This document shows, piece after piece, positions 2,180 through 62,400 of a stretch of 64,000 nucleotides of DNA. The notes beneath the pieces were generated by a model. The model searched no databases. It saw only the letters and a list, made by a program, of their open reading frames with translations, and had not been told where the DNA came from. The position numbers were made by a program, and so were the translations under genes. Positions within the stretch are counted from its first letter, which is position 1. Each line of letters begins with the position of its first letter. Source of the stretch: a virus. Where the stretch lies: positions 62,001 through 126,000 of the IMG/VR virus record IMGVR_UViG_3300026512_000003. One strand, given 5' to 3'.

Positions 2180-3601
2180 TTATTGTTTTATCATGACGAC
2201 AGCTTTTGTTTTTCCAAGTAGAAAACTTAACTCTAAGGCTTGTTTTAAAACAGTGCTGACAACTTTTGTAGGGTCGAGAGCTTTATTTTTATTACCACCG
2301 CATTTCTCAAACAGAGCCAATCCTGCTTGATACAGATCTGTCTTCGTCTGTAAGCCTTTTAAAGCATCACGGTATGCTACGGCTCCTCCTGGAACCACTC
2401 CACCTGCTAAAGCCAAGGAAACAGCATTTACGCAATCGTCAGCTCGATCTTTTCTTTCCACAAGAGAACTTTTACTGTCTCCTCCAAGAATTACGCTTAC
2501 AGATTTTTGCTTCACAATCGAAGTTAAAATTTTATACATATCACGCTCTTCGTCAGTAGTGGCGTCACCCTGCAGTTCTAGGTATCTATTAGCTAAAAGA
2601 TTACATTTGTCGCTATCTCCATTACCTATAAATCTAACACTATTTTTGTTCATAGAAAAATTTTGAATTTCTGGACATCTTTCGATATCAATATCACCTA
2701 TCTCTATCCCTCTAGAATCTCCCAAAATTGAATCCTGACCACAAGCAGTACTTAATGCTTCAGCCAAAAGACTATTTCCTACCGCTGAACCACCATTGTA
2801 GATAACAGGAGCAATATTAATAGAATGTCCATTGTTTAGCATCATAGTAGACAGTGAATTCACAGCGAAACCAGGTGCTATAATAATTAAATTTTCAATT
2901 TCTGTCTCTACACATTTGTTTATCAAATTAAATACTGTATCCTCCCCTATAATTTCAGAATCAGAGATTACAACCGAAGCTTGGTCAAAAAATACCTCGT
3001 ATCCATTTGCTTTATGCAAAAAAGAATCATTCGCAAGGTACCCTGAAAATGCTATTCCATTATAAGTAGAGACAGCTGATTTATGACCAACTTTCATTTC
3101 CACAATAACAGTGCCTAGATTATCTTCGTCTGCTTTGTGGTAAGCATCCAATATAAGGCCTGCGAGTTCAGAGTCTCCAGCTACAGATGTTTCAGCAACT
3201 TGTAACAACTCTTTTGAGTTAATAGAAACAGGGACTGACATTTTCTTAAGATTATTTTCAATATTTTTCAAAATATTTGTTTTATTCATATAATCTTCAG
3301 CCTTAAACCTTTTGTAAATCTCATTTGCAAGTAATATTGTAGATGTTGTCCCATCTCCTACAATTGCAAGAGTATTTAAAGAAGCCTCTTTGATTATTTC
3401 AAGGACTCCGTTTTCTGAAAGATCATCAGAATAAAGAGATCTTAATACAGATACCCCATCTTTAGTTATTACAGATTTTTTTCCTGAAGTTAGGATTACA
3501 AAGTCGCCTTTTGCTCCATATGTCTGTTCAACAAGTAGCGCTGCTCCAGTAATGGCACTACCTACAATGTTACTTCTTGATTGTAAAGTTGCTTGAATCA
3601 T
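2180..3601 (-). CDS. groEL: Phage GroEL-type chaperonin
   Basis: A 473-residue group I chaperonin, about 70 residues shorter than bacterial GroEL (about 545). Nucleotide-site motifs are present: TKDGVSVL around residue 46 (Asp48, equal to GroEL Asp52), GDGTTSTILLA from residue 82 (Asp83, equal to Asp87) and Asp389 (equal to Asp398) before GGVVPGG. The C-terminus keeps LDPTKV but lacks most of the preceding equatorial segment and the GGM tail. Its ATG overlaps the stop of the GroES gene by one base (TAATG), so the two are translationally coupled. It probably folds phage structural proteins as an ATP-driven ring; whether it forms single or double rings cannot be read from sequence. Confidence 0.92.
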   Translation of the reverse strand: MIQATLQSRSNIVGSAITGAALLVEQTYGAKGDFVILTSGKKSVITKDGVSVLRSLYSDDLSENGVLEIIKEASLNTLAIVGDGTTSTILLANEIYKRFKAEDYMNKTNILKNIENNLKKMSVPVSINSKELLQVAETSVAGDSELAGLILDAYHKADEDNLGTVIVEMKVGHKSAVSTYNGIAFSGYLANDSFLHKANGYEVFFDQASVVISDSEIIGEDTVFNLINKCVETEIENLIIIAPGFAVNSLSTMMLNNGHSINIAPVIYNGGSAVGNSLLAEALSTACGQDSILGDSRGIEIGDIDIERCPEIQNFSMNKNSVRFIGNGDSDKCNLLANRYLELQGDATTDEERDMYKILTSIVKQKSVSVILGGDSKSSLVERKDRADDCVNAVSLALAGGVVPGGAVAYRDALKGLQTKTDLYQAGLALFEKCGGNKNKALDPTKVVSTVLKQALELSFLLGKTKAVVMIKQ

Positions 3602-17881: not shown

Positions 17882-20800
17882 TTATGCTGTATGATATGTC
17901 ATATAATCTTGACTAGTATGTGTTTTTCCAAAAATATCTATAAACTTTACTTTAAATTGAACTTCACCTGAGCCATCTCCAGAATAGGTAGCTTTAAAAG
18001 TATTTCCTGGATTACTGGTTTCAACTAAAGTAAGCTTAGTAATATCAAAGTCAGAGATAGTACTTGAAACATCCTCGAAACCTACTGCATTCATGTCTTT
18101 TAGTAAAAGTCCATCAGGCGTGAAACCAAGAAAAGCTTTATAAGGAAAATCTTGTCCAAAATCAACAGACGAAGAACATTCAATTAAAATAATCACATCT
18201 TCATCTGAACGAACATGCACATCTAACTCCATTTTTTTTGAAGAGCCATTAAGAGATGCTGAGAAATATGACAGAATTTCTTGTTTTTTAAATATATCGT
18301 TTTCTTGTACAAAACACGCTTCTTTAAAAAGTGTGCCAGACATAGTTGGAAAAACATTACTAAAAGCATCTTCTATATCCGTAGAATAAGAAAATGCTTT
18401 TGAGCCAGAAATTAAGCATATCCAAACAAGAAACCAATCATAAGGTAGTAAATCTGTTTTCTCCTCATCATCAGTAAATAAAAGCCCTGTAATTGAATCA
18501 AAATTTGTCTTCCAATCAGAGTAAGCAATACTATCCCCTTTACTTTTTAAATAAAAGAATATTTTTAAAAAAATTGTATGTAGAGCATTTTTATGATTAG
18601 TGTTATTTTGTGTCATAATAGTATTTAGTAGAAGAAGTGTTCCGAGTTCCTCTTTTGTTAAGACAGTTGTGTATGAATGATAAAGCGTTTGTAGCATAGA
18701 CTTAGCGCTATTTATAGAGACTATGTCTCCCCCATCAGTAATCTCAACAGCATCCATTAAAATACTCCATAGGGAATCTTTATGTTTTTTTGAATATCCT
18801 GAAAGAGAATGGTTTATAGCCAGACTTAAACTATCAGCAAAATATCCTTTTCTTACTATCTCACCATAACAGTAATCCTCAGCAGAAGAATCACTTATTT
18901 TTGCTTGAAGTTGATATTTCGTTATTTTATGTTGGCATAAAGACAATGGAACTTTTTCTTCAAGATATCTATCTTGTATATAAAGACTTTTATTGCTTTC
19001 TATGTTGGATATCTCAAAATCTCCTTGAAAAAGAAGAGCTGTATAACTATCTATTAACATGCTAGCATCAAACGGATATACTTTTTCTGTTAAAGGCAAT
19101 GCCATTTTTCTAAAGTTTCTAAAATACAAATCTTTCACTGTTACATGAGAATCTATAGGAACACCATCTATGCCATAATTGTTATCTGGACTATCTTCAG
19201 GGTCATCTGTTCCAAAAAGTTCTATTGCTAGGTCTTCTTGCACAAAAAATTCAGTGAGATAATAGTATGGTGCCACAAAAGCACTTGCTAATGCAATAAA
19301 GCGTTCTTCTCGTAGATCATCGTCAAGAGAAGCCGCTAATCTAAAAAGAAATGTGTATTGTTTTTTGCTATATTTCTTTTGAGGTACCCTTGCATCCATA
19401 ACAAAGTTTTCAATAGTTTCCTCCGATACTCCATAGCTGTCTTCAATCCAGCATTTTTCATAGTTAGAAAAAAAAGCTTTCTTGTCGGCATGTTTTTTGA
19501 CACTTATATCTTCAGTACACAGAGCGTTTAGACTACCAAAAATTTTATTCCCCTTGTATAGTCTTTCAGATAAAATTTCAGAAAAAGTGTTGTTTTCAGT
19601 TCCAAGAATTTTTTTCTCGTATACCACAGGAGCAATCGTTGTGAGAACCTCTCGGAGGGAATCTTTTGTAGCTAAACAATTAGAGCCTGCTTCTGCAAAA
19701 AACCATCTATCGGCTAGACCAGCTTGAGTAGAATTAAAAGGAGTTTCTATAACTGCACTTCCTCTAGGTACAGGATTAATACCCTCTGAAGAATGAATTA
19801 GATTTTCTGAACTAGCATTGATTATTTTAGATGCTTTTCTAATAAATCTACCTACAGAACAAACACTGTTTTCACTTGATGAAATTGGATGAGAAAGTAT
19901 TGGTCTGAAAACATTTGAGGGGTTTGCTAAAATACCATCAAATGTAAGTTGTTGAGCCTCATATTTATTTAAAGGCATTTTCTTATGATAGATTTGCCCA
20001 TGTTGTTTTTTTAAAAATGAAAGCTCAAACGAATCTAATTTAGGAAGTTCTTTAAGATCATTTCTCAAAATAGTGTTTCTTTCTACAGGGATAGTGTAAT
20101 TATTTTCGCCAGAGTTTGACAAGGTTATCTGTTCCCCAGCCGTCGTTGCAGTCAATACTATTTTTGCACCTTCTGTATTAGAATTCATAGAGAGATTTGC
20201 ATCATTTATTTTGGTCTCAAAAAGAGAAGCTAGTTCGCTTTCTGAACTCACTGCTTCCTGAGAGGCATCAATCGCCGTTTCGGTATCTGCTAATGTAATA
20301 GAAAAAGTATCTTCTTTGTTGAATTTAACAATTGTACATTCTGAAATTTGAGGGGTTGCTGCATTATAATTAGAAATATCAGTAACTTCGACTTGCCATG
20401 TATCCCCAGAGACAAAAGAAACATCAGCATCTCTAGTAAAGGAAATTTGCATCTTACTCTGAAACTGTTCCAATGTGACTGTGTCATTATAGGGATATTC
20501 GTCATCGTCCTTAAATCCATCCATCTTTATTACTTCAAACGGAGCTTCATCAAAAGTATTAACAAGATCAACGATATCAGCAATCAATGGATATACAACA
20601 TCTGAGCCATCATGCTCAAAAGTAATCGTTATTTTTTTTCCTCCACTGTCTGTATCAGAAGCCTCTATAGTTAAATCGTGTTCATCTGAAGGAGTAATCA
20701 TTTCCACTATATATTCTACATCTTCAGTTTCATCCCGAACTAACCAGTTAAAAACTTTATCACCATCATCATCCTTAAAAAGCATAGAGTAATATCCCAT

Positions 20801-21700
20801 TGTTGCTACAATGTCAATTCCGTCAACTTCAGCCAAAGCATCTTCAAGACCCGCTTCAATATCATCCAATGTATCATCAGTAGCATAAGTGTAAGTATAA
20901 TCTGTTCCATCTATTCTAATGGAATGATTCACTTCTTTTAATCTAATCAAGTTAATAATAGTAACATCGTCTGTTCCAGCTACAGGTTCCTGTGTTGTTA
21001 CAAATTGAGATATTTTAGAGCCACTACCATTTAATTCTGCATCTGTTAAATTTTGATTTATCTCTCCAACAGTTGCATCAGATAGCTCTATCCCTGCAAT
21101 ATCTTTCTCGAAAGAAAGTTTGATGTTTTTCATTCTACCAAATCTAGGGAGTATATTAAACCTGTTAGAAAAGGAGTTTCTTGAAATCATATAGTTTGGG
21201 CTTAGAACATCTTCTGATACAATACTTTTGGTTACAGCAATCTGTTCTCCCGTTTTAAAAATTGCATTACTTTTTTTTGAAAGCTGTTTTTTTGTTAGTG
21301 TGTTGGAAATCCAGGAATATTCAGTACTTATTTTATCGTCAAGTGTTATTTTTTTTGGAACAAAAGTACTTATCATTTTATTTTTAATATTTGCACCTGT
21401 CCATGCATCTTGAGATTGAGAAGTATAAGCAGACGCAACAACAGAAATGTCACTTGTCTCTAGGTGAAATTTATTTCCAGTTCCTATCTCTGTGTCACTT
21501 ATTGATTTTATAATTCCAACAAGTTCTTTTGTGACTATTTTTTTGTTGCTCATCCCTAACCCCTGTTTAAAATAATTATTTTTGTCTTTTTGCAGTTTAC
21601 TCATCATATTATCAAAGCTACAGACAATGCCTTCAACACTTTTTGAAAGACCTTGAAGACTTCTCCCAACAGATAGTGCTTCATGTTCCTGAGAGGTCAT
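17882..21700 (-). CDS. Very large virion protein with inserted beta domains, 1272 aa
   Basis: ATG directly follows the TAA of the preceding gene. Residues 1-200 are mostly polar and helical. Residues about 230-520 are acidic (many Asp, Thr, Ile) and look like three or more tandem beta-sandwich modules of about 80-100 residues, each with Gly/Thr/Asp turns. Residues 560-1150 contain aromatic and helical segments, and the last 120 residues return to strands. Such a layout suits a baseplate hub, tail-tip or large fibre protein. No peptidase or lyase motif is visible. The neighbouring RCC1-like gene ends directly before it. Confidence 0.65.
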   Translation of the reverse strand: MTSQEHEALSVGRSLQGLSKSVEGIVCSFDNMMSKLQKDKNNYFKQGLGMSNKKIVTKELVGIIKSISDTEIGTGNKFHLETSDISVVASAYTSQSQDAWTGANIKNKMISTFVPKKITLDDKISTEYSWISNTLTKKQLSKKSNAIFKTGEQIAVTKSIVSEDVLSPNYMISRNSFSNRFNILPRFGRMKNIKLSFEKDIAGIELSDATVGEINQNLTDAELNGSGSKISQFVTTQEPVAGTDDVTIINLIRLKEVNHSIRIDGTDYTYTYATDDTLDDIEAGLEDALAEVDGIDIVATMGYYSMLFKDDDGDKVFNWLVRDETEDVEYIVEMITPSDEHDLTIEASDTDSGGKKITITFEHDGSDVVYPLIADIVDLVNTFDEAPFEVIKMDGFKDDDEYPYNDTVTLEQFQSKMQISFTRDADVSFVSGDTWQVEVTDISNYNAATPQISECTIVKFNKEDTFSITLADTETAIDASQEAVSSESELASLFETKINDANLSMNSNTEGAKIVLTATTAGEQITLSNSGENNYTIPVERNTILRNDLKELPKLDSFELSFLKKQHGQIYHKKMPLNKYEAQQLTFDGILANPSNVFRPILSHPISSSENSVCSVGRFIRKASKIINASSENLIHSSEGINPVPRGSAVIETPFNSTQAGLADRWFFAEAGSNCLATKDSLREVLTTIAPVVYEKKILGTENNTFSEILSERLYKGNKIFGSLNALCTEDISVKKHADKKAFFSNYEKCWIEDSYGVSEETIENFVMDARVPQKKYSKKQYTFLFRLAASLDDDLREERFIALASAFVAPYYYLTEFFVQEDLAIELFGTDDPEDSPDNNYGIDGVPIDSHVTVKDLYFRNFRKMALPLTEKVYPFDASMLIDSYTALLFQGDFEISNIESNKSLYIQDRYLEEKVPLSLCQHKITKYQLQAKISDSSAEDYCYGEIVRKGYFADSLSLAINHSLSGYSKKHKDSLWSILMDAVEITDGGDIVSINSAKSMLQTLYHSYTTVLTKEELGTLLLLNTIMTQNNTNHKNALHTIFLKIFFYLKSKGDSIAYSDWKTNFDSITGLLFTDDEEKTDLLPYDWFLVWICLISGSKAFSYSTDIEDAFSNVFPTMSGTLFKEACFVQENDIFKKQEILSYFSASLNGSSKKMELDVHVRSDEDVIILIECSSSVDFGQDFPYKAFLGFTPDGLLLKDMNAVGFEDVSSTISDFDITKLTLVETSNPGNTFKATYSGDGSGEVQFKVKFIDIFGKTHTSQDYMTYHTA

Positions 21701-23491
21701 TTAGTCTTCCAAATTCTCTAATCTATCATAAATGTCATCAAAGTTGTTTTTCTGACTATTTGTTAGTGCTACTATTTTATCTCTAACGACCTCTTGACCT
21801 TCTATGAGAGCCTCTACACTATCCATAATATCAGTAATTAATGCTGATGCTTTTGTTTGCATCACAGAAACATCATTATCTCTATATATAACTTCTAAAG
21901 GAACAAGTAACGGATCTGTTTCATCAGTAATTTCTACAAAATCAATTTCAAAAGCAGAACAGTTTCTAATATATAATGCAATACGACAGTCACTGTAAGC
22001 TGCTTCGGATAAGTTCATATGTGATCCTTGCATTTTTTCAGAATAACCACCAAATAATTTTCTACAAGAAGTAACTTTACCTATTGGACTAAAACTAACA
22101 GTCATCTCATATTTTTCCTCTCCATTTGTAATAAGAGAACCTTCTAATGGAATATGTCCACTAGTCATCCCTGTTCCTTTTATGTCGTATATGAAATCTT
22201 GCCCACTTTTGTCTTTTGAAAGGATTGTTCCTTTCATTACTTCGGGAATCGCTTCAAAAAGTGTATCATGATTATTACTGCCTACAATAATTGGCCAAGA
22301 ATGATCAGAAATATCACTAAATGTTTGCATTGACTCAGGAAGTGATCCTTTTTGGATACCAAACATTATATTGAATCCACCTCTCTCTTGAAGCATTGGG
22401 TAGTTTTCAAAAGCATCATTCCAACTGTTTGCTGTTTTTTTACTACCAGATGTACCTGTCAACACATCATTAACACTACTAGGAACATTACCTATTTCAA
22501 CAAAACTAAGATTGTTTACAATCCCGATAGACCAACCATTTCCAGCTACCACATCTAAGAAAAAATTTCCATTCTCCCCAGTAATAGTATTAGTTCCATC
22601 CACATCTTTGCCCCAGGTAATAATCTCACCATTCTCTGTGATAGCACTTATTATTTGTTCTCCACAAGATACTTTTTTCGCAGTAATATTAGGCTTGTCA
22701 TCAACTTGCCCAAACTCATTATCTCCAAAAATATCAAAAGTACCATCTGTATGTAGAAGTGCAAGATTGTTGCCTTGCCCTGTAATTTGCACTGCTTTAT
22801 TGTCATCCCCTATATCTAAACCAATCACTGATACATTTCCTGAGTTAAAAATAGCTGCATAGAAATCTTCACCTGCACAAATATCAACTATCATATTCTC
22901 ATCTACCGTAGTCCATTCTGTTGGGAGAGCCAAATCTCCATCTCTATCGGAACCATAAAAAGTAACTGTGCCATTTTGTCTGAGTGCAATAGTAAAACCT
23001 GCGCCAGTTGCAATTTGAGAAATAGTTTCTAAGTCTTCAAGGTCTAGCTCAGCATTATCATTTGAACCTTGAAATCCAAATAGAGAACCTGATTTCACAA
23101 TAGTGTGAGTAGAAGAAGTGTCTACCCCATAAAAAGTTCTTCTTTGATATGAGTCTACATTCTCTCGGCGATCTTCTTTTTGACACCCATCAGACAAATC
23201 ATTTCCTGACCAGAGGTTATCACTATTGGGAGCCTTAGTAAGGAAAGCAAAATTGTCTCCAAATGAACTTCCAAAAGTACCAGAACGAACAAAAGGAGAA
23301 AAAGGCTGTGCTTTAAACACAATTCTTAATGTTTTGTTTGCTGCTGATAAGTCGAAAGATTCTCGAGAAACAATACCAATCAAATAATCATCTGTTTCTT
23401 CTCTTTCTATGAATAAAGAGCCATCTGTTCTTGCTTGCACTGCATTGCTATTTGAAACAAAGTCAGAACTAGTTAATACGGTAGTCGCCAT
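21701..23491 (-). CDS. Virion protein with RCC1-like beta-propeller repeats
   Basis: A 596-residue protein. Residues about 120-350 contain five to six repeats of roughly 45-50 residues of RCC1 type, seen in segments such as VDICAGEDFYAAIFNSGNV, KKVSCGEQIISAITENGEI and ITWGKDVDG. Each has the 'G..h..a....G.v..wG.n..G' pattern of an RCC1 blade. The C-terminal 60 residues are a helical, probably trimeric coiled coil. RCC1 propellers are protein- or ligand-binding scaffolds, so a receptor-binding or fibre-tip role is reasonable. It is coupled to the 1272-aa gene downstream. Confidence 0.65.
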   Translation of the reverse strand: MATTVLTSSDFVSNSNAVQARTDGSLFIEREETDDYLIGIVSRESFDLSAANKTLRIVFKAQPFSPFVRSGTFGSSFGDNFAFLTKAPNSDNLWSGNDLSDGCQKEDRRENVDSYQRRTFYGVDTSSTHTIVKSGSLFGFQGSNDNAELDLEDLETISQIATGAGFTIALRQNGTVTFYGSDRDGDLALPTEWTTVDENMIVDICAGEDFYAAIFNSGNVSVIGLDIGDDNKAVQITGQGNNLALLHTDGTFDIFGDNEFGQVDDKPNITAKKVSCGEQIISAITENGEIITWGKDVDGTNTITGENGNFFLDVVAGNGWSIGIVNNLSFVEIGNVPSSVNDVLTGTSGSKKTANSWNDAFENYPMLQERGGFNIMFGIQKGSLPESMQTFSDISDHSWPIIVGSNNHDTLFEAIPEVMKGTILSKDKSGQDFIYDIKGTGMTSGHIPLEGSLITNGEEKYEMTVSFSPIGKVTSCRKLFGGYSEKMQGSHMNLSEAAYSDCRIALYIRNCSAFEIDFVEITDETDPLLVPLEVIYRDNDVSVMQTKASALITDIMDSVEALIEGQEVVRDKIVALTNSQKNNFDDIYDRLENLED

Positions 23492-23493
23492 AA

Positions 23494-23862
23494 TTATGCT
23501 CCTATCTCATGTCTAAAACGATTATCTAGTTGCTCAAAAATAGCATCTCCTAAAGTAGTTGCAATTGTAGATATGTAAGCTAAATCAGAATTACCAGCTT
23601 CTTCAGCAATCTTAATGATGTCTTCAGGTGTAGTAGCCTGTTCCATTTGAGAAGCAACTTTTTCTAGAGTTTCGCTTAAATCAAGTGGCGCACCTATCTC
23701 TTGTTCTATTTGAGTCGCAACATCTAGTGTTTCCTCAGCTTCTTTTACTAAAGCAGTTCCTTGTGCAAGTGAGCTTAAGCTAAGATCTTTAGCACTCGCT
23801 GTTTTTTGTAACGACTGTTCTTCGCTTACTGATTGAATTAGATTACCTATATTTACTTCCAT
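23494..23862 (-). CDS. Small acidic protein with Lys-x-Ala motifs, 122 aa
   Basis: ATG with AAGGA seven bases upstream. Entirely helical and acidic. Four copies of hydrophobic-x-Lys-x-Ala-(Ser/Glu) are visible: LQKTAS, LVKEAE, LEKVAS and IIKIAE, spaced about 20-45 residues. It resembles a scaffold or internal head protein. The motif links it to the proteins at 10076-12202, 24867-25454 and 30021-31274. Confidence 0.65.
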   Translation of the reverse strand: MEVNIGNLIQSVSEEQSLQKTASAKDLSLSSLAQGTALVKEAEETLDVATQIEQEIGAPLDLSETLEKVASQMEQATTPEDIIKIAEEAGNSDLAYISTIATTLGDAIFEQLDNRFRHEIGA

Positions 23863-23875
23863 TTTGTATTCCTTT

Positions 23876-24406
23876 TTAGTTTGGTTTAGAGTAGATACCT
23901 TGAATAATTAGTGTTATTTTACCTAAAATCTGGCAAGAACTCAAGACAGATCCCTCACCTTCAAGTTTTTCTGTTTGACCCCAAAGTACAAGATCTGCTC
24001 CAGATATATTAGGATGTTCTGTCTTTAAGGCACCCATTGCGGATGTTAAAAGTGTCTCAACAACGATATTGCTTATTTTTTCTGTCTCTAAATAAGAGTT
24101 CCCTACACAAGTGAATTGAATAGGGTAGTCTATAACATGCATAGTGTTGTAAATATTTGAATTTGTATTGACATCGAATATTTTTTGTTCATTCATCATA
24201 AGAGATTTTGGTACATGAGACAATTGTCCTCTTTCTATAATAACAAGAGGTGCCCTCTGTGGATTTTTTTTAAACGAATCTCTCACCACTATTTCTGTAT
24301 CCGTATTTCCAAGATTAGCAAACTCTTCAGACAAAAACTTTTTATAAATAGAAAGCATATCTCTGAATAGTAAAAGCCTATCTCCAGTATCTCCTCTAAC
24401 AAACAC
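23876..24406 (-). CDS. Candidate tail terminator/completion protein, 176 aa
   Basis: GTG start, four bases after the stop of the preceding gene. The alpha/beta pattern (N-terminal helix, then strands, then the segment YPIQFTCVGNSYLETEKI followed by a helix) resembles tail terminator or tail-completion proteins that cap the tail tube. The similarity is structural impression only; no residue signature proves it. Confidence 0.4.
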   Translation of the reverse strand: MFVRGDTGDRLLLFRDMLSIYKKFLSEEFANLGNTDTEIVVRDSFKKNPQRAPLVIIERGQLSHVPKSLMMNEQKIFDVNTNSNIYNTMHVIDYPIQFTCVGNSYLETEKISNIVVETLLTSAMGALKTEHPNISGADLVLWGQTEKLEGEGSVLSSCQILGKITLIIQGIYSKPN

Positions 24407-24409
24407 AAC

Positions 24410-24865
24410 TTACTCTTTTATATGATACTTATCAGACAAAGCTTTTTTGTATGCTTTTGCCCTATCTGTATCTTTGCCTACAAGGTTTTCTCTTGCTCCT
24501 TGCTGTTTATTATATTCACTTCGCTGTTTTTTTAAAGATAACACTCCTGAAGCAAGAGCTCCAAGACCTCCAATAATCCCTTTTTTTCTTGTTGCAGAAA
24601 AAATTTTTCCAGAGTCTTTGTTAATTAAAGTATTACCCATTAGGTAAGCAAGCGATCCACCTGTAGCAATATCTTTTGTCGTCTCTTCTGAAGAAGAGGG
24701 AGCTGAACGCTTACCTTTTACATCTGCTAATAATTCGAGTTGTGCAAGTCTCTTATTTTCTAAAGAACCCTGGTCATCTGCTATTTTGTCCCCAGTTACA
24801 GGATCAAAATTTTCAAAAGCAAGTAGTCCTATTTTTTTATTTTTATTTTTCTTATATTTCTGCAT
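24410..24865 (-). CDS. Small basic protein with a Gly-rich segment, 151 aa
   Basis: ATG with GGGAAA upstream. The N-terminus is very basic (MQKYKKNKNKK). A Gly/Ala-rich segment GIIGGLGALASGVLS lies at about residues 95-110 and is followed by a basic tail. It shares the glycine-zipper style with several other virion-block proteins and could be an internal or membrane-active component. No family recognised. Confidence 0.6.
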   Translation of the reverse strand: MQKYKKNKNKKIGLLAFENFDPVTGDKIADDQGSLENKRLAQLELLADVKGKRSAPSSSEETTKDIATGGSLAYLMGNTLINKDSGKIFSATRKKGIIGGLGALASGVLSLKKQRSEYNKQQGARENLVGKDTDRAKAYKKALSDKYHIKE

Positions 24866-24866
24866 C

Positions 24867-25454
24867 TTATATTTCCCTAATCGAAGTGTCGTATGACTTT
24901 TGTGCTGAACCTAGCAAGCCATAAGTATTTTGAAAAGCGTTATTGCTTCTCCCTCCTCTTTGTTGAATCTCTGCAAGGTTTTTGCTAGTTGCTATATCAA
25001 CTCCACCAACAGCATGTGCTGTTGTCAAAAAAGTTGTAGCAAGTTCAGGATCTTTAGCTGCTCTAGGAGCGATAGTGTGAGCACTGTTCAGCCAATTTCT
25101 TAGTTTGCTATCTTTTACAGTTCTCAATGAAGGATTTGTTTGCTTTGCATATGCAATTAAGCCTGGTACTTTTTTCCTAAATTTCATATCATTATATTCA
25201 TCTGTCAAAGCTTCTGCACCAAGCCCAACTCCTGTTAGGGCTACAGCCATTGGTACAGCTTCAGCTAAAGCTGTTCCAATATGACCAAAACTAAAAGAAG
25301 CTTCTTTTTGTATTTCGTCTGAAATTGTAGGACTGTCTTTAAGCATTTTCAGCAAAGTATTCGCTTGTGCAATTTTTACAAAAGTTGTTTCAGAATCTTC
25401 TGAGAATCCATTTTTTTCAACTTCTTCCGCTAATTTTATTAATATCTTTTCCAT
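24867..25454 (-). CDS. Virion-block protein with Lys-x-Ala motifs and membrane segment, 195 aa
   Basis: The start is placed at the second in-frame ATG (25454), which has AAGGA eight bases upstream and does not overlap the outer spanin gene; the ATG at 25472 has no ribosome site. Residues 1-60 carry LIKLAE, FVKIAQ and IQKEAS. Residues about 70-95 are an Ala/Val/Gly membrane-type helix. The rest is helical and basic. It lies right after the lysis genes but its features match the internal virion proteins rather than lysis proteins. Confidence 0.65.
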   Translation of the reverse strand: MEKILIKLAEEVEKNGFSEDSETTFVKIAQANTLLKMLKDSPTISDEIQKEASFSFGHIGTALAEAVPMAVALTGVGLGAEALTDEYNDMKFRKKVPGLIAYAKQTNPSLRTVKDSKLRNWLNSAHTIAPRAAKDPELATTFLTTAHAVGGVDIATSKNLAEIQQRGGRSNNAFQNTYGLLGSAQKSYDTSIREI

Positions 25455-25458
25455 ATTA

Positions 25459-25779
25459 TTAATGTCCTTCATCTGTACTTATTGTTTTTTCTGTTATCTC
25501 TAATAAACGGTTGTGTTCATTTATTAGTAATAATAGCTCTTTTATTCTTTCTTTTCTCTGAATACACTTAGCTGATATTTTTTCAAGATCGTTTTTTGAA
25601 ATCACAAATTTGTTAATATCCATCTTTTTTATTGTGATATTAATATCGGTAAGTGCATCTGATTCCGATACATAAATTTTCTCTCCAACAGGAATTAATG
25701 ATTGCTGATGAACCACAGTACTACATCCAGCGAATAACAGACTAAAGAGAAAGAGTAATGCTTTGTTCTTTTTGCGCAT
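25459..25779 (-). CDS. Outer-membrane lipoprotein, o-spanin-like
   Basis: ATG at 25779 is chosen because AGGAG lies seven bases upstream; the in-frame TTG at 25785 is too close to it. The 106-residue product has a lipoprotein signal: MRKKNKALLFLFSLLFAGC, with the lipobox ending at Cys19. The mature part is helical and charged. It begins inside the 3' end of the inner spanin gene in another frame, the Rz/Rz1 arrangement. It should anchor in the outer membrane and bridge the periplasm with the inner spanin, fusing membranes at lysis. Confidence 0.75.
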   Translation of the reverse strand: MRKKNKALLFLFSLLFAGCSTVVHQQSLIPVGEKIYVSESDALTDINITIKKMDINKFVISKNDLEKISAKCIQRKERIKELLLLINEHNRLLEITEKTISTDEGH

Positions 25780-26303: not shown

Positions 26304-28046
26304 CTATAGTCTTCCAAGTAGAAGCTGGGCTCTATCGGAATGAATGTTTGATAAATTTTCATTATCACCTGAAGTTACATTTTGAGAGAGACCTTTTTTG
26401 ATTCCTCTGTAATTAATTTGTTGCCATATACTTTTCCCATTCATAGGGCGTTGTTCGTATGTTTTAAAAATTGTTTCATAATTCGGCTTGGAATGAGAGA
26501 CAGAGATTTCTTTTACACCGGCTTTTCTCAAATTAGAAATAGTGTCTTTTGTGATTTTATGGCCAATACTGTAATGTAGTTTTGGTTCAGCAAGAAACTT
26601 TTTAACTATTTGTCTGTCTCCCACTTTCATATTTACAATATTACTTCCTTTTAAATCACCAATGGATTCATCATAAGTCATCAAAGAATGCTCTCCATTA
26701 AGACCTTTTGGCTTAATAAGGTTTAGATACCCTCTACTAATAACTTCTAAATTTCTCTTATCTATTACGCCTCCGGTAGACTTTTGTAAAGCATTTGATA
26801 AGTAATGACGAGCTTCTACTACCCCTCTGTGTAAAAGGATATCTTTAGTGGAAGCTATTCCGTTTGTTAGGATATCTCCCTCTTCCACTGTATGTCCAAC
26901 TGAAACCTTTGGAGAAATTCCTGGAATTACATAATGATCTTTCCCAGCAATCGTCATGTTATATCCACCCGTAGGGAGCTTGGAGATTTTCGTTACAGTT
27001 CCTTGAGTGGTAGCTACAGTTGCTTTTCCTTTAAATTTCTCGGTAGAATTTAATAGAATTTTAGTTGCTTCAAAACCACTTGGAATATGGGAAGATTCTT
27101 TTCCTGCAACATTATGTTTAGCACTTAATACTAACTGTGTTGCTTTTTCAGCTAATGACTGAGAAGATTCTATTCCTATATTATGCCCAGTGTTATGAAA
27201 TTGCCCTGTTGAATTTTTTCCAAAACATAAAGCACAAACCCCATGTTTCGCTCGGCATGTTTCAACTGTTCTGGCAACGACATTCTTAACTCCCTTTGAT
27301 TTAAGAGATTTCAAATATTGTTCATCTAAGACTTTGTTTGTCTTAGCTTCAACTCTTCCTATTAAGTCACGATCATTTATAGAAAACAATTTTCCATTAG
27401 TTGTCCCACAATCATGCATAACAACTTTTAAATCTTCAGTGTTAGCAATTAGTACTTTTCCCATTGCCCCTGGTTCTGAAGTTGAAACAGCTGCTTGTAC
27501 TGCAGCATATCTAGCTTGTCCCCCTGAAGCATATTGTTCATGGGCACTTAGTCCATTTGATAAACTATTTTTTATCAAAAAAGGATATGGTTCGGAATTC
27601 ATATCAACAGCAAAACCTACAGCTCCTGTAACCCTTGTTGCAGTAGAAGGATTTCCTCTAGCTTTAGATAAAGCTTGAATTACAATACCATTGTTTTTGT
27701 TTTTAAGTGTCATACCTTGCAACTTGTTAAATGTTGAAATTAGATGTCTCTTTGCTTCCTTCTCTGGAAGTCTCGATATAATCTTGTCTTGCACATCTAA
27801 AAAGTTTTTGATTTCCTTGTGATTGCTTAGGTGCAAATCATTAATACCCATGTTGTGACCACTCAGATAAGCTAACTCTTCCCCAAGATCTCCAATTTTG
27901 TGTATGTTCTCAGAATATTGCAAAGGATATTTTTTTGCAAACGATTGAAGTCTTGCATTCACTTTTGGCTTGGTTAAAGGAGCATCACTGTTTTTAAAAT
28001 GAAGCTCCGTAGGTAGATATTTGTTTATCTCTCGAATGGAAGTCAT
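26304..28046 (-). CDS. RNA polymerase beta-prime subunit, C-terminal fragment (phage multisubunit RNAP)
   Basis: A 580-residue protein homologous to the C-terminal half of bacterial beta-prime. Seen in order: the ARGNPSTATRVTGAVG region (130), the bridge-helix region with GLSAHEQYASGGQAR (165), the second zinc site with all four cysteines (Cys213 in HDCGT, Cys264, Cys271, Cys274 in GVCALCFG), the trigger-loop region from IGIESSQSLAEKATQLV (290) with the conserved His311, and the C-terminal block VEEGDIL...DILLHRGV...IDKRNLEVISRGY (387-440). The catalytic DFDGD lies in the other half and must be on another gene, as in phages with split beta and beta-prime. The trigger-loop Met-Arg pair of E. 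coli is replaced. Its place among virion genes suggests a packaged, injected polymerase, though this is inference. Confidence 0.9.
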   Translation of the reverse strand: MTSIREINKYLPTELHFKNSDAPLTKPKVNARLQSFAKKYPLQYSENIHKIGDLGEELAYLSGHNMGINDLHLSNHKEIKNFLDVQDKIISRLPEKEAKRHLISTFNKLQGMTLKNKNNGIVIQALSKARGNPSTATRVTGAVGFAVDMNSEPYPFLIKNSLSNGLSAHEQYASGGQARYAAVQAAVSTSEPGAMGKVLIANTEDLKVVMHDCGTTNGKLFSINDRDLIGRVEAKTNKVLDEQYLKSLKSKGVKNVVARTVETCRAKHGVCALCFGKNSTGQFHNTGHNIGIESSQSLAEKATQLVLSAKHNVAGKESSHIPSGFEATKILLNSTEKFKGKATVATTQGTVTKISKLPTGGYNMTIAGKDHYVIPGISPKVSVGHTVEEGDILTNGIASTKDILLHRGVVEARHYLSNALQKSTGGVIDKRNLEVISRGYLNLIKPKGLNGEHSLMTYDESIGDLKGSNIVNMKVGDRQIVKKFLAEPKLHYSIGHKITKDTISNLRKAGVKEISVSHSKPNYETIFKTYEQRPMNGKSIWQQINYRGIKKGLSQNVTSGDNENLSNIHSDRAQLLLGRL

Positions 28047-28057
28047 AAGGCTATCTC

Positions 28058-28579
28058 TTAATCTCCGTCATCTTCAGACAGATTATCTATTTTGGCTTGA
28101 ATTGCTGCAACCAAATCAGTAAGACCCTGTTTTGTTGACATAATTATATCTCTAGGACTTTTCTCAATATGATTAAGAAGAATCTTCTGATCTGTAATAA
28201 GAGGCGAACTTGTATCAGTAGCAATTTGCTGTGCAAGTGCAGGTAACGCATAATCTTTAAAGAACACACTATTTGGATTGTATGATATATGCAATTTACT
28301 TGTCAAATCTGGTGAACAATTGAATACATATCCACCTTGAATATTTTTCTTTAAAGAAATTGTAACATCAGGTGCATCAGTATTTGTTGTGATGAGATCT
28401 TCAATTGTTGTGATAGCAGTAGCTATTTCTGTAACTGAAGAAGATAATTGCTGAACAGTTCCACTTAAGCATTGCAAATAGCATAAGTTTAATTGAACAT
28501 CATAAATATTGTTCGGTTCCCAGAGAGTGTAGTTACATTTTTGTAACTCAGCCTGTATTTTTTCCGAAGTTGTTGCCAT
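28058..28579 (-). CDS. Unknown virion-block protein, 173 aa
   Basis: ATG with AGGAG upstream and an extended -10 promoter in the gap before it. Residues 1-75 are helical with Thr/Ser-rich heptads and several Cys; the last 50 residues are a second helical region. It may be a trimeric or coiled-coil structural protein. Having its own promoter suggests it is needed in quantity. Family unknown. Confidence 0.65.
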   Translation of the reverse strand: MATTSEKIQAELQKCNYTLWEPNNIYDVQLNLCYLQCLSGTVQQLSSSVTEIATAITTIEDLITTNTDAPDVTISLKKNIQGGYVFNCSPDLTSKLHISYNPNSVFFKDYALPALAQQIATDTSSPLITDQKILLNHIEKSPRDIIMSTKQGLTDLVAAIQAKIDNLSEDDGD

Positions 28580-28620: not shown

Positions 28621-28629
28621 ATTATATCA
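28621..28629 (-). promoter_or_regulatory. Extended -10 promoter for the 173-aa gene
   Basis: TGATATAAT on the minus strand (TG at 28629-28628, TATAAT at 28626-28621), identical to the nonamer at 13207-13215. It lies in the 65-base gap between the 456-aa and 173-aa genes. No -35 is apparent. Confidence 0.5.
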
Positions 28630-30020: not shown

Positions 30021-31274
30021 TTACCTATACACGATTTGTTCGTATCCTTCTGGCGAAATACCAATAAGTGCACTCGCATAACCTTTATCTATCATATCCA
30101 TATACTTTGGATTTGGCTCTCCTCTTGACATAGAAAGCCATCCAGTATTCCCTGTTGTTGTCGAGTTTCCATCAGGGAAAACAATCTTATACTCAGGATA
30201 TTCCCTCTGTCTGAGATTTTTTCTTTGAGCCTTTCTTAGTTCTTTGTCAGCCGCTGTTTTTAAAAGATAAGTTCTCGTGCTTAACTTACTTAGTGTTTCA
30301 TTTGAGTACATTTCTAAAGATGCTTCTTTAAGAAAAGGGCACTCTTGAGCAGAGAGAGCTTGATCTAATAACATAGTAATAATAGTATCTTTTCTCGCTT
30401 CTGATTTAAGTTTAGGAAATTCGGAATGATGAATACTACTTGCAAGAAACATTGCCTCTTCAGGGAGAAGTTGAATATTATGAGATCTAACAAGCTTTAT
30501 TATTGTTTTTTTAGGAAATCTATCTCTAAAAGTAGATAATTCCTTAGGACTAACAGCTTCAGGCATAGTGTCTATTGCTTCAATCCTTTTAATAAGCTCC
30601 GCTGTTTTGCTTTCCAATAGATTTTCAGCACTAGCAACCTTCTGAAACAAAGCATGCCCTTGAGCATCAGCCGGTCTTCTTACTATAGATATGTCAAAAA
30701 AATTCATAGGGGGCTTATTTATTGCATAGACTATTTGTCCATTTGGCATTTGCTGGTGCATCATAAACTTTAAATGGTCGCATCTGTTTGCTATAGACCC
30801 CTTAGTTATGGCTCCACAAAAAGAACAAATTTCTTGGGGTACTCGCACGCCCATGGACACCTTATATCGCATTCCACTTTTAATCCCTTCGTATATGTCA
30901 GGCGCTTTGTTTTTTGAAATTTCCAAAATGAGTTCTACTCTATGCATATGAGAGTTATAAATAGCTTTAAGTACCTTACCTAGTGTTTTACTTGGGTCTT
31001 TATTGTCATGTTGCATAAAGATACCAGCAGTTTCAAATGTTTTATAATATTCTTGAAGGTCTTTTTCATAAAAGAAATCACCATTATTGTTTTCTCCGTA
31101 GTAATCACCTGCACCCATTGCAATAACAAGCAAATAGGCATGGTCTTTTTTCTGTTTTATTTCCTCAAGGGGGTTGCTTTCTGCAGTTTTTTGAAGAGGA
31201 CAGTTTCCCCCAAAACAACTAGCATGTCCTATTTCTATATTCTCTATTGTGAAGTCTATTCTTTTTTCTAACAT
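30021..31274 (-). CDS. Prohead protease-like protein with zinc-binding insert
   Basis: A 417-residue protein. Residues 45-145 match the style of phage capsid maturation proteases: GENNNGDFF (60), then FMQHDNKDP with His89, a segment HRVELILEI (111) and VSMGV with Ser140, a plausible His/Ser catalytic pair. Cys150, Cys153, Cys165 and His167 form a likely zinc knuckle. PADAQGHA (201) follows, then a helical tail. Four copies of the Lys-x-Ala motif (LQKTAE, FQKVAS, FLKEAS, LLKTAA) lie in and after the domain. If it is the maturation protease, these could be self-processing or partner sites. Assignment is by motif, not by search. Confidence 0.5.
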   Translation of the reverse strand: MLEKRIDFTIENIEIGHASCFGGNCPLQKTAESNPLEEIKQKKDHAYLLVIAMGAGDYYGENNNGDFFYEKDLQEYYKTFETAGIFMQHDNKDPSKTLGKVLKAIYNSHMHRVELILEISKNKAPDIYEGIKSGMRYKVSMGVRVPQEICSFCGAITKGSIANRCDHLKFMMHQQMPNGQIVYAINKPPMNFFDISIVRRPADAQGHALFQKVASAENLLESKTAELIKRIEAIDTMPEAVSPKELSTFRDRFPKKTIIKLVRSHNIQLLPEEAMFLASSIHHSEFPKLKSEARKDTIITMLLDQALSAQECPFLKEASLEMYSNETLSKLSTRTYLLKTAADKELRKAQRKNLRQREYPEYKIVFPDGNSTTTGNTGWLSMSRGEPNPKYMDMIDKGYASALIGISPEGYEQIVYR

Positions 31275-59826: not shown

Positions 59827-60097
59827 TTATGATGTGAAAATCCCAAAAAAATTTCAAGAAGCTTCTCCTGAAGAAATTCTAAGTTGGGTTGAAGAAGAAT
59901 ATTCCTTAAAAGGGGAAAGGTTACTTCAAAATATGGATAGTGAGCTGGATACAATAGAAGTAACACATATTGATGATAAAGAAATGGGAGGCATTGATAC
60001 AGCATATGGGCAAGAGGTAGTTGAGAAGAGAAAATCAACTTATCGTTTAATCCTCGATGGTCAGCCAAATTCATATGCTATAAAAAAACAAATATAA
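59801..60097 (+). CDS. Small unknown protein, 98 aa
   Basis: ATG inside the last codons of the 529-aa gene, with AAGGA upstream. Begins with a strand (TITVSINYDVKIP), then a helical acidic part with EEILSWVEEE. The ORF is well formed but I recognise no domain. Confidence 0.55.
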   Translation: METITVSINYDVKIPKKFQEASPEEILSWVEEEYSLKGERLLQNMDSELDTIEVTHIDDKEMGGIDTAYGQEVVEKRKSTYRLILDGQPNSYAIKKQI

Positions 60098-60114
60098 GAT
60101 AACAGGAGAGGAAA

Positions 60115-60747
60115 ATGCCTAATTGGTCAAATACAACAATGGAATTTAAGGGCAACAAAAGTGTATTAGAAAAAATCGAGACAGCCGTAAGAGAAAATAA
60201 TCTTAGTTGTTTAGGACTAGAGGAACCCTTGGATAATCCTAAATGGGAGAACTATGTTAATGAGAATGGAGAACCTTGCACAGGATTATGGCATGAATGG
60301 CATATTCAGTATTGGGGTACTAAATGGGAAATGGAAATATCAAACATAGAAAACATAGATGGAATTTTGACTATAAGTGGACAGTGTGCTTGGAATGGTC
60401 CAAATAAATGGTTTAAATATATTTCCCAAAAATTTAAGTTGTCATCTACATATACAGATTGGGAAACTGGGGCGGACTTTTTTGAGGTTATTGAATATAA
60501 AAAAGGCGAATTGATAAAAGAGGCTACTGTAGAGTTACTATCGAAGGAAGCATACACTTATATCGCAACCGACGCTTTCTCAGGATATGAGTATGTGTTA
60601 TATGAAAGTAAAAATCTTGAAGATGCTAGTCAAAAGTTTCCTGAAGTTTTCAATAAAGCAAAACTTATGGGGATTTCAAACAAGGAAGTCGAAAATATAT
60701 TATTCGAAGTAGGAGCAGAATATGGGGAAGAAGAGCAAGTTTCTTAA
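60115..60747 (+). CDS. Api92-like phage protein (ferredoxin-like domain)
   Basis: A 210-residue protein that starts MPNWSNTTMEFKG and contains HIQYWGTKWEMEI (about 63-75) and a Trp-rich region (CAWNGPNKWFKYI), the pattern of the Api92/DUF1281-type domain found in many phages. The family is of unknown function and often lies among early genes. The C-terminal half is helical and acidic. ATG with AGGAGAGG upstream. Confidence 0.65.
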   Translation: MPNWSNTTMEFKGNKSVLEKIETAVRENNLSCLGLEEPLDNPKWENYVNENGEPCTGLWHEWHIQYWGTKWEMEISNIENIDGILTISGQCAWNGPNKWFKYISQKFKLSSTYTDWETGADFFEVIEYKKGELIKEATVELLSKEAYTYIATDAFSGYEYVLYESKNLEDASQKFPEVFNKAKLMGISNKEVENILFEVGAEYGEEEQVS

Positions 60748-61686: not shown

Positions 61687-62400
61687 ATGTTTAATAAAGT
61701 TATAATATTAGGAAATCTTACTAGAGATATTGAGTTGAAGTATTTACAATCAGGTACAGCAGTAGCAGGCTGCGGAATTGCATCTTCTCGAAAATGGAAA
61801 AGTCAAGACGGACAACAAAGAGAAGAGACAATGTTTGTCGACTTGTCTTTTTTTGGGAGAACAGCAGAAGTTGCGAATCAATATTTACACAAAGGTAGTA
61901 AATGTCTGATAGAAGGTAGATTAAAATTAGATCAATGGACAGATCAAAATGGACAAAAAAGATCAAAGCATACCGTACAGGTAGAAGAAATGAAGATGTT
62001 AGACTCTAGGCCTCAGCAAAGTGGACAGCAACAAGGAGGATATCAACAACAAGGAGGATATCAGCAACAAGGCAACTATCAGCAACAAGGCAACTATCAG
62101 CAACAAGGCAACTATCAGCAACAAGGCAACTATCAGCAGCAACCACAAGCATACCAACCTCCACCAACGCAATATGTAGATGCAAATGGTAATCCAATAA
62201 CTGAAGAGCAATATAAGCAGAATATGCAACAGCAAGCTCCACAACAGCAAGCTCCACAACAGCAAGCTCCACAACAGCAAGCTCCACAACAGCAAGATCC
62301 ACAACAGCAAGCTCCACAACAGCAAGCTCCACAACAGCAAGATCCAGTTGTAGAAAATATCCCTGTTATAGATGTTGATGAGGACGAAATCCCTTTTTAA
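61687..62400 (+). CDS. ssb: Single-stranded DNA-binding protein with long repetitive tail
   Basis: A 237-residue SSB; ATG at 61687 starts the family motif (MFNKVIILGNLTRDIELKYL) and has AGGAA upstream. The OB fold ends near residue 105. Residues 110-150 are QQQGGY/QQQGNY repeats and 180-220 are QQQAP/QQQDP repeats, encoded by two tandem repeat arrays. It ends in DVDEDEIPF, the acidic tip that binds partner proteins. Bacterial SSB is about 170-180 residues, so the tail is enlarged. It coats ssDNA at replication forks. Confidence 0.93.
   Translation: MFNKVIILGNLTRDIELKYLQSGTAVAGCGIASSRKWKSQDGQQREETMFVDLSFFGRTAEVANQYLHKGSKCLIEGRLKLDQWTDQNGQKRSKHTVQVEEMKMLDSRPQQSGQQQGGYQQQGGYQQQGNYQQQGNYQQQGNYQQQGNYQQQPQAYQPPPTQYVDANGNPITEEQYKQNMQQQAPQQQAPQQQAPQQQAPQQQDPQQQAPQQQAPQQQDPVVENIPVIDVDEDEIPF
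62026..62133 (+). repeat. Six 18-bp repeats in ssb
   Basis: Six tandem copies near CAGCAACAAGGCAACTAT; the first two read GGAGGATAT in the second half, the last four are identical. Encodes QQQGGY and QQQGNY. Confidence 0.9.
62227..62346 (+). repeat. Eight 15-bp repeats in ssb
   Basis: Eight tandem copies of CAACAGCAAGCTCCA; copies 5 and 8 have GATCCA (QQQDP instead of QQQAP). Confidence 0.9.

Follow-up and report, generated by a model that had tools for sequence, protein, structure and literature searches.

A predicted two-chain, alpha-less phage RNA polymerase distinct from the phiKZ and AR9 enzymes

Phage multisubunit RNA polymerases

Multisubunit RNA polymerases (RNAPs) of phages have so far been known mainly as enzymes of giant phages, made up of four to five pieces. 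In the phiKZ and AR9 enzymes, beta and beta' come as four to five polypeptides per enzyme, with two enzymes per phage and no sigma factor, and in jumbo phages the non-virion RNAP set is encoded by early genes (PMC7598289). Intron mobility has been proposed to have split the phage RNAP genes, as reported by Sokolova et al. (PMC7598289). Furthermore, single-chain phage RNAPs with two barrels, including gp66 of the crAss-like phage phi14:2, gp96/gp64 of P23-45 and YonO, have been described and belong to a QDE-1-like clade; P23-45 gp96 is a virion enzyme which is fused to the tape measure (PMC10770324). Another lineage, the mReC RNAPs of Caudovirales (Weinheimer and Aylward 2020, PMC7481178), was recovered from metagenomic data including IMG/VR; it forms a deep phage clade apart from the cellular enzymes, and its beta and beta' come close to the cellular subunits in size. 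The mReC search filter was NADxDGD and the capsid hits were PF07068, and in the accessible portions of the paper neither a beta-beta' fusion nor a displaced C-terminal part of beta' (beta'C) is reported (PMC7481178).

Here we focus on a 580-aa open reading frame (ORF) in a stretch of 64,000 nucleotides, referred to as the window, taken from a virus record of 165,427 bp (IMG/VR IMGVR_UViG_3300026512_000003, window at positions 62,001 to 126,000) that is linear and possibly incomplete. Judged by its genes, the enzyme to which this ORF belongs is a two-chain, alpha-less RNAP, composed of a fusion of beta with the N-terminal part of beta' (beta-beta'N, chain 1) and of a separate beta'C (chain 2), and thus a phage multisubunit RNAP predicted to be distinct from the phiKZ/AR9 members. 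In contrast to the QDE-1-like phage RNAPs, its family aligns with bacterial beta and beta' from end to end.

The two chains and the surroundings of beta'C

A sequence-only reading had taken the ORF for a C-terminal fragment of beta', and this assignment was borne out by domain, profile and structure comparisons. The ORF is matched by Pfam RNA_pol_Rpb1_5 (2.7e-11) and by NCBIfam rpoC TIGR02386 (1.2e-41, with residues 8-447 on positions 558-1046 of 1147), and PHROGs likewise assigns it to RNAP beta'. Solved bacterial beta' chains match it by sequence (7e-30, PDB sequences), and the profile-profile comparison of 47 relatives with 10 bacterial beta' subunits reached a probability of 100 and an E of 2e-64 over 533 columns, the template span being 568-1193 of 1302. 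The chain extends from the F-bridge region ('TTVGR..NEILP') to near the C-terminus, which corresponds to S. aureus beta' from about residue 563. In the AlphaFold model (pLDDT 85, pTM 0.70) a 36-residue bridge helix and the trigger helices are present, and a PDB structure search with this model returned bacterial RNAP beta' as the best match (1e-25), with weaker matches in a library of viral models. The ORF is confirmed as a genuine C-terminal half of RNAP beta'.

The bridge-helix, four-Cys zinc and trigger-loop signatures that had been read from the letters were all recovered (Table 1), and the four cysteines as well as H311 are unchanged across the 47 relatives. The trigger loop reads TQLVLSAKH where bacteria have TQLTMRTFH, with Ser308 in place of the Arg and K310 in place of the Phe, so the earlier observation that the Met-Arg pair is gone and the His retained also stands.

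Table 1. Positions of the features discussed; coordinates refer to the window unless a relative's locus is given
Feature	Position	Strand	Remarks
Arash gp221 homolog (annotated structural protein)	24867..25472	(-)	conserved neighbour of the RNAP module
beta' C-terminal subunit, phage RNA polymerase	26304..28046	(-)	ATG start, 580 aa
trigger-loop region, residues 290-333	27048..27179	(-)	H311 at the catalytic position
four-Cys zinc site C213, C264, C271, C274	27225..27410	(-)	invariant, 47 relatives
bridge helix, residues 168-203	27438..27545	(-)	AlphaFold helix and alignment to the bacterial bridge helix
173-aa gene directly upstream of beta'C	28058..28579	(-)	11-base gap, same strand
TGATATAAT, extended -10-like motif	28621..28629	(-)	upstream of the beta'C gene pair
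head maturation protease homolog (Arash gp222)	30021..31274	(-)	conserved neighbour
PF18823-bearing RNAP of a relative	L106:9257-15049
PF18823-bearing RNAP of a relative	L108:9833-14779
PF18823-bearing RNAP of a relative	L111:9032-14668

The catalytic half of beta', which had been described as absent, is indeed missing from this gene but not from the genome, where NADYDGD is encoded beyond the window, at 20278-24513(+), in an unbroken frame of 1411 aa. In this chain 1, beta (Rpb2_3, Rpb2_6) is followed by beta' N (Rpb1_1, Rpb1_2), fused in frame, and the two parts cover residues 110-1093 of T. aquaticus beta and about 170-500 of B. subtilis beta'. The chain holds the NADYDGD magnesium triad and the beta-barrel GDK lysine motif; it has no cysteine at all and therefore lacks the N-terminal zinc finger of bacterial beta'. 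By the position of the end of chain 1 (about 500) and the start of chain 2 (about 563) on bacterial beta', the subunit is cut after the catalytic barrel, and about 60 beta' residues between them are missing. The catalytic elements are conserved in both chains, across which the functional core is complete, including the magnesium triad, the beta-barrel lysine motif, the bridge helix, the trigger-loop His and the beta' zinc site. A further RNAP fragment is hence present in the genome, namely the fusion chain, and instead of the two beta fragments that had been expected elsewhere, beta forms one chain.

PF00562, PF00623 and PF04998 each occur at a single place in the genome record, which may be incomplete, and neither phmmer nor profile searches of the 165,427 bp of this possibly incomplete record revealed a second copy of either chain. 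An alpha subunit (no PF01000 match) and tubulin were likewise not found in the genome record. A sigma-like protein is encoded at genome positions 59834-60454 (Sigma70_r3 1e-9, FliA/WhiG 2e-6); it is short, of the region 2-3 type, and homologous to gp10 of Salmonella phage Arash, annotated as a sigma factor.

The placement of beta'C among structural genes, also part of the sequence-only reading, was corroborated by the two neighbours in Table 1, homologs of an Arash protein annotated as 'structural protein' and of the head protease. The 173-aa gene and beta'C are probably co-transcribed, because they share a strand and are separated by an 11-base gap. An extended -10 motif without a clear -35, TGnTATAAT, was found in 7 of 59 upstream regions vs 0.5 expected, at genome positions 3908, 4308, 5436, 18971, 75207, 90621 and 149254 and 19-42 bases before the start codons. 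Structural genes are preceded by it, among them the portal gene and the beta'C gene pair. Given these motifs, the host enzyme may transcribe the structural genes; the motif itself does not separate host from phage polymerase. The structural gene block also contains a GroEL/Cpn60-like chaperonin (2180-3601(-), PF00118, 1e-22), and a putative tail protein with apparently RCC1-like repeats, by eye only, is encoded at 21701-23491(-). The homolog of the major capsid protein (MCP) has no Pfam match, PF07068 included, and shows a weak HK97-fold NCBIfam match. Like the mReC lineage (PMC7481178), the present family is an RNAP clade separate from bacteria; unlike the mReC capsid hits, its MCP has no PF07068 match. 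An overlap of the two families is likely.

Relatives, inserted elements and phylogeny

Single-sequence scans of IMG/VR with each chain as query gave no matches. Alignment-based scans recovered 29 relatives of beta'C and 189 of the fusion, from which 80 matches at 78 loci were retained. Because [AN]ADYDGD was among the scan patterns, the enrichment of NADYDGD over NADFDGD is not taken as a family trait; the trigger-loop difference is free of this bias. Among cultured phages, Arash (gp206 and gp216) and Vibrio phage D69 (VPHD69_0261 and _0264) carry the same fusion and a separate beta'C, with 25-30% identity to the window phage, which they also resemble in portal, protease, MCP and TerL homologs. 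In Arash and D69 the two RNAP genes lie close to each other and adjoin the portal gene; about 64 kb separates them in the window phage. In the database records of Arash and D69, the RNAP chains are called only 'RNA polymerase subunit beta' or 'hypothetical protein'. Our literature search, which covered papers available outside subscription, found no paper on Arash and no published report of fused phage beta-beta', or of inteins or pyrophosphatase in phage RNAPs.

Several architectures are present in the family. A beta-beta'N fusion with separate beta'C is represented by 53 distinct complete fusion proteins in IMG/VR, and a single-chain beta-beta' of about 2040-2150 aa occurs at loci L051, L086, L090, L091, L093-L097, L099 and L103, most of them near portal or terminase. 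In other members, beta is fused to about 120 beta' residues, the remaining beta' N and beta'C being separate; a homing-endonuclease gene interrupts beta (D181, D148); or additional cuts are found (L044, L049 and copies). In YerA41 and Carin-5 the RNAP genes are unfused. Arash gp7 (L022:7425-8105), a protein of 226 aa annotated as structural, is a stand-alone beta' four-Cys zinc region. Three records, 'Staphylococcus phage SA 1306 Kay', 'Enterococcus phage Efs 1-1-1' and a gut contig, were first taken for two-gene phage RNAPs and were rejected as bacterial rpoBC by subunit lengths and tree position; AFYI01000006.1 and CAKLQF020000005.1 were rejected as bacterial rpoBC by annotation. In the phage collection, these two accessions, as well as OR844998.1 and OR846602.1, contain bacterial rpoB/rpoC and resemble host chromosome contigs.

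In 78 of 93 scorable loci, some of which are near-duplicates, a portal gene on the same strand precedes the RNAP gene by no more than 6 kb, and beta'C follows the fusion 0.6-7.6 kb downstream in 59 loci. Where the locus extends far enough, the conserved order is portal, RNAP, beta'C, gp218, gp221, protease and MCP. The subclade of the window is an exception: about 64 kb separates the fusion from beta'C and the portal link has been lost, yet beta'C keeps its place between the homologs of gp221 and of the protease.

Several RNAPs of the family carry inserted domains. Insertions of about 490-540 aa directly follow NADYDGD in L036, L068, L079, L081 and L085 (fusion residues about 1362 onward) and show LAGLIDADG and weak intein-splicing matches; others are found at the fork motif SPE|G in L092, L100 and L102, with Cys first and GN-Ser last in the two that were read (L092, L102), and in L049 a Hint domain lies inside beta'C. 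By these features, the insertions at all three places are probable inteins. In Vibrio phage D181, a homing endonuclease gene (L013 10584-11201; record 145897-146514) lies between the beta halves, and beta is unbroken in its close relative D69. The family would thereby supply the kind of intermediates which the intron-mobility proposal predicts. A phage-type inorganic pyrophosphatase domain (PF18823, 4e-25 to 9e-32) is present inside beta at one shared site in the three RNAPs of Table 1.

A tree of 57 rows and 1302 columns was built under a site-heterogeneous model (quick search, SH-aLRT support only); it included 21 bacteria, Helicobacter among them, with Wolbachia, cyanobacteria, archaea and eukaryotes outside the sample. 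The bacteria, the phages and all fused phage enzymes each form one clade with a support of 100, and beta'C was thus not taken from a host in recent times. The single-chain form and the cut forms are sister groups (support 99), and a larger tree without a mixture model left the branching order of the two open. YerA41 and Carin-5 branch outside the fused clade, on a long branch. Both Helicobacter sequences, which have an rpoBC fusion of their own (2883-2896 aa), fall inside Campylobacterota and apart from all phages, a placement by which Helicobacter is seen to have fused rpoBC independently of the phages. Bacteria and the single-chain form have a trigger loop of the type M-x-x-F-H or L-x-x-F-H, and nearly all cut forms have L-x-x-K/R-H. 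On the tree, the change to L-x-x-K-H maps to the branch on which beta' was split. On the simplest reading, the phage family would go back to one beta-beta' fusion, followed by a single cut of beta' behind the catalytic barrel, with the trigger loop changing from M-R-x-F-H to L-x-x-K-H on that same branch, and then by more cuts. Cyanobacterial split rpoC1/rpoC2 and Helicobacter fused rpoBC represent the same kinds of rearrangement, independently acquired; the combination of a beta-beta' N fusion with a free beta'C is found in neither.

Proposed role and alternatives

We consider it rather probable that this two-chain RNAP without alpha is made late with the head proteins, packaged and injected, and that it derives from one fusion which was then cut. 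Chain 1 would contribute both double-psi barrels, and chain 2 the bridge helix, the zinc site, the trigger loop and the rest of the clamp/jaw; with the barrels on one chain and the bridge helix and trigger loop on the other, neither would be catalytic alone. The two chains would assemble without alpha or omega, for which the alpha-less phiKZ/AR9 enzymes are a precedent. Virion association is a trait of the phiKZ/AR9 enzymes (PMC7598289); for the present family, known from its genes, a virion role is proposed mainly because the RNAP genes stand in the head module, near the portal gene, which is circumstantial support; the wide spacing of the two genes and the lost portal link in the window's own subclade count against it. 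From this placement, synthesis alongside the head proteins, packaging and injection appear moderately probable, and the injected enzyme would then begin to transcribe the incoming genome, perhaps together with the sigma-like protein of the phage.

The same two-chain enzyme could also be made early or in mid-infection and act late as a non-virion polymerase with the sigma-like protein, its head-module position reflecting co-regulation only. The sigma-like gene and the TGnTATAAT motifs upstream of structural genes are in line with this view, which we nevertheless regard as unlikely, as the genes are kept within the head module beside portal and protease across a very diverse clade and as the non-virion set of jumbo phages is early-encoded (PMC7598289). 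That beta'C is instead a degenerate fragment, domesticated as a non-transcriptional structural piece of the virion, is very improbable: although Arash gp7 illustrates that such pieces are reusable, neither chain has lost any of its catalytic elements, and the partner chain has an intact magnesium triad.

Two further alternatives concern the origin of the two-chain enzyme. The sequence-only reading had placed it with the phiKZ or PBS1/AR9 multi-piece group, with which it shares the lack of alpha, pieces encoded as separate genes and the identical cut of beta' after the catalytic barrel (PMC7598289). This cut position is the part of the likeness that stood, whereas the remaining architecture, sequence and predicted fold depart from it. 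The window phage has two chains, one set, a beta that is unsplit and fused to beta' N, a sigma-like protein and no tubulin, and the weak tblastn matches to PBS1/AR9 beta' pieces (7e-7) compare with the far stronger cellular beta' match, as do the viral-library matches in the fold search; membership in that group is therefore hardly credible. Equally hard to sustain is the view that the phage took over a host beta-beta' fusion, Helicobacter- or Wolbachia-like, and cut it later. Helicobacter does have a natural fusion, among rpoBC profiles the fused one matches chain 1 best, and an epsilon-like TTTTTTTGATATAAT motif occurs at the beta'C gene pair, but both Helicobacter sequences lie within the fully supported bacterial clade (Wolbachia being outside the tree sample), and the best cellular matches are 27-32% identical and scattered over many phyla.

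On a broader scale we tentatively suggest, with somewhat less than even confidence, a widespread and largely non-jumbo phage lineage whose portal-module virion RNAP had a single-chain origin and was re-cut by mobile elements, in which the single-chain, two-chain and three-chain forms of today, the inteins at the catalytic and fork motifs and the homing endonuclease inside beta would display the cutting process, so far suggested but unobserved, behind the split RNAPs of giant phages. The two-chain and single-chain forms, with their near-cellular sequence, represent a tractable minimal system of at most two recombinant proteins and no alpha, and the ordered series from a single chain via a cut beta' to more cuts offers a way to test the origin of split RNAPs. 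The trigger loop, in which Met-Arg is replaced and a Lys stands beside the catalytic His, is a natural experiment. Finally, the link to the portal and the pyrophosphatase in the beta of some relatives make a packaged, self-driving polymerase a proposal that is testable in the cultured phages Arash and D69.
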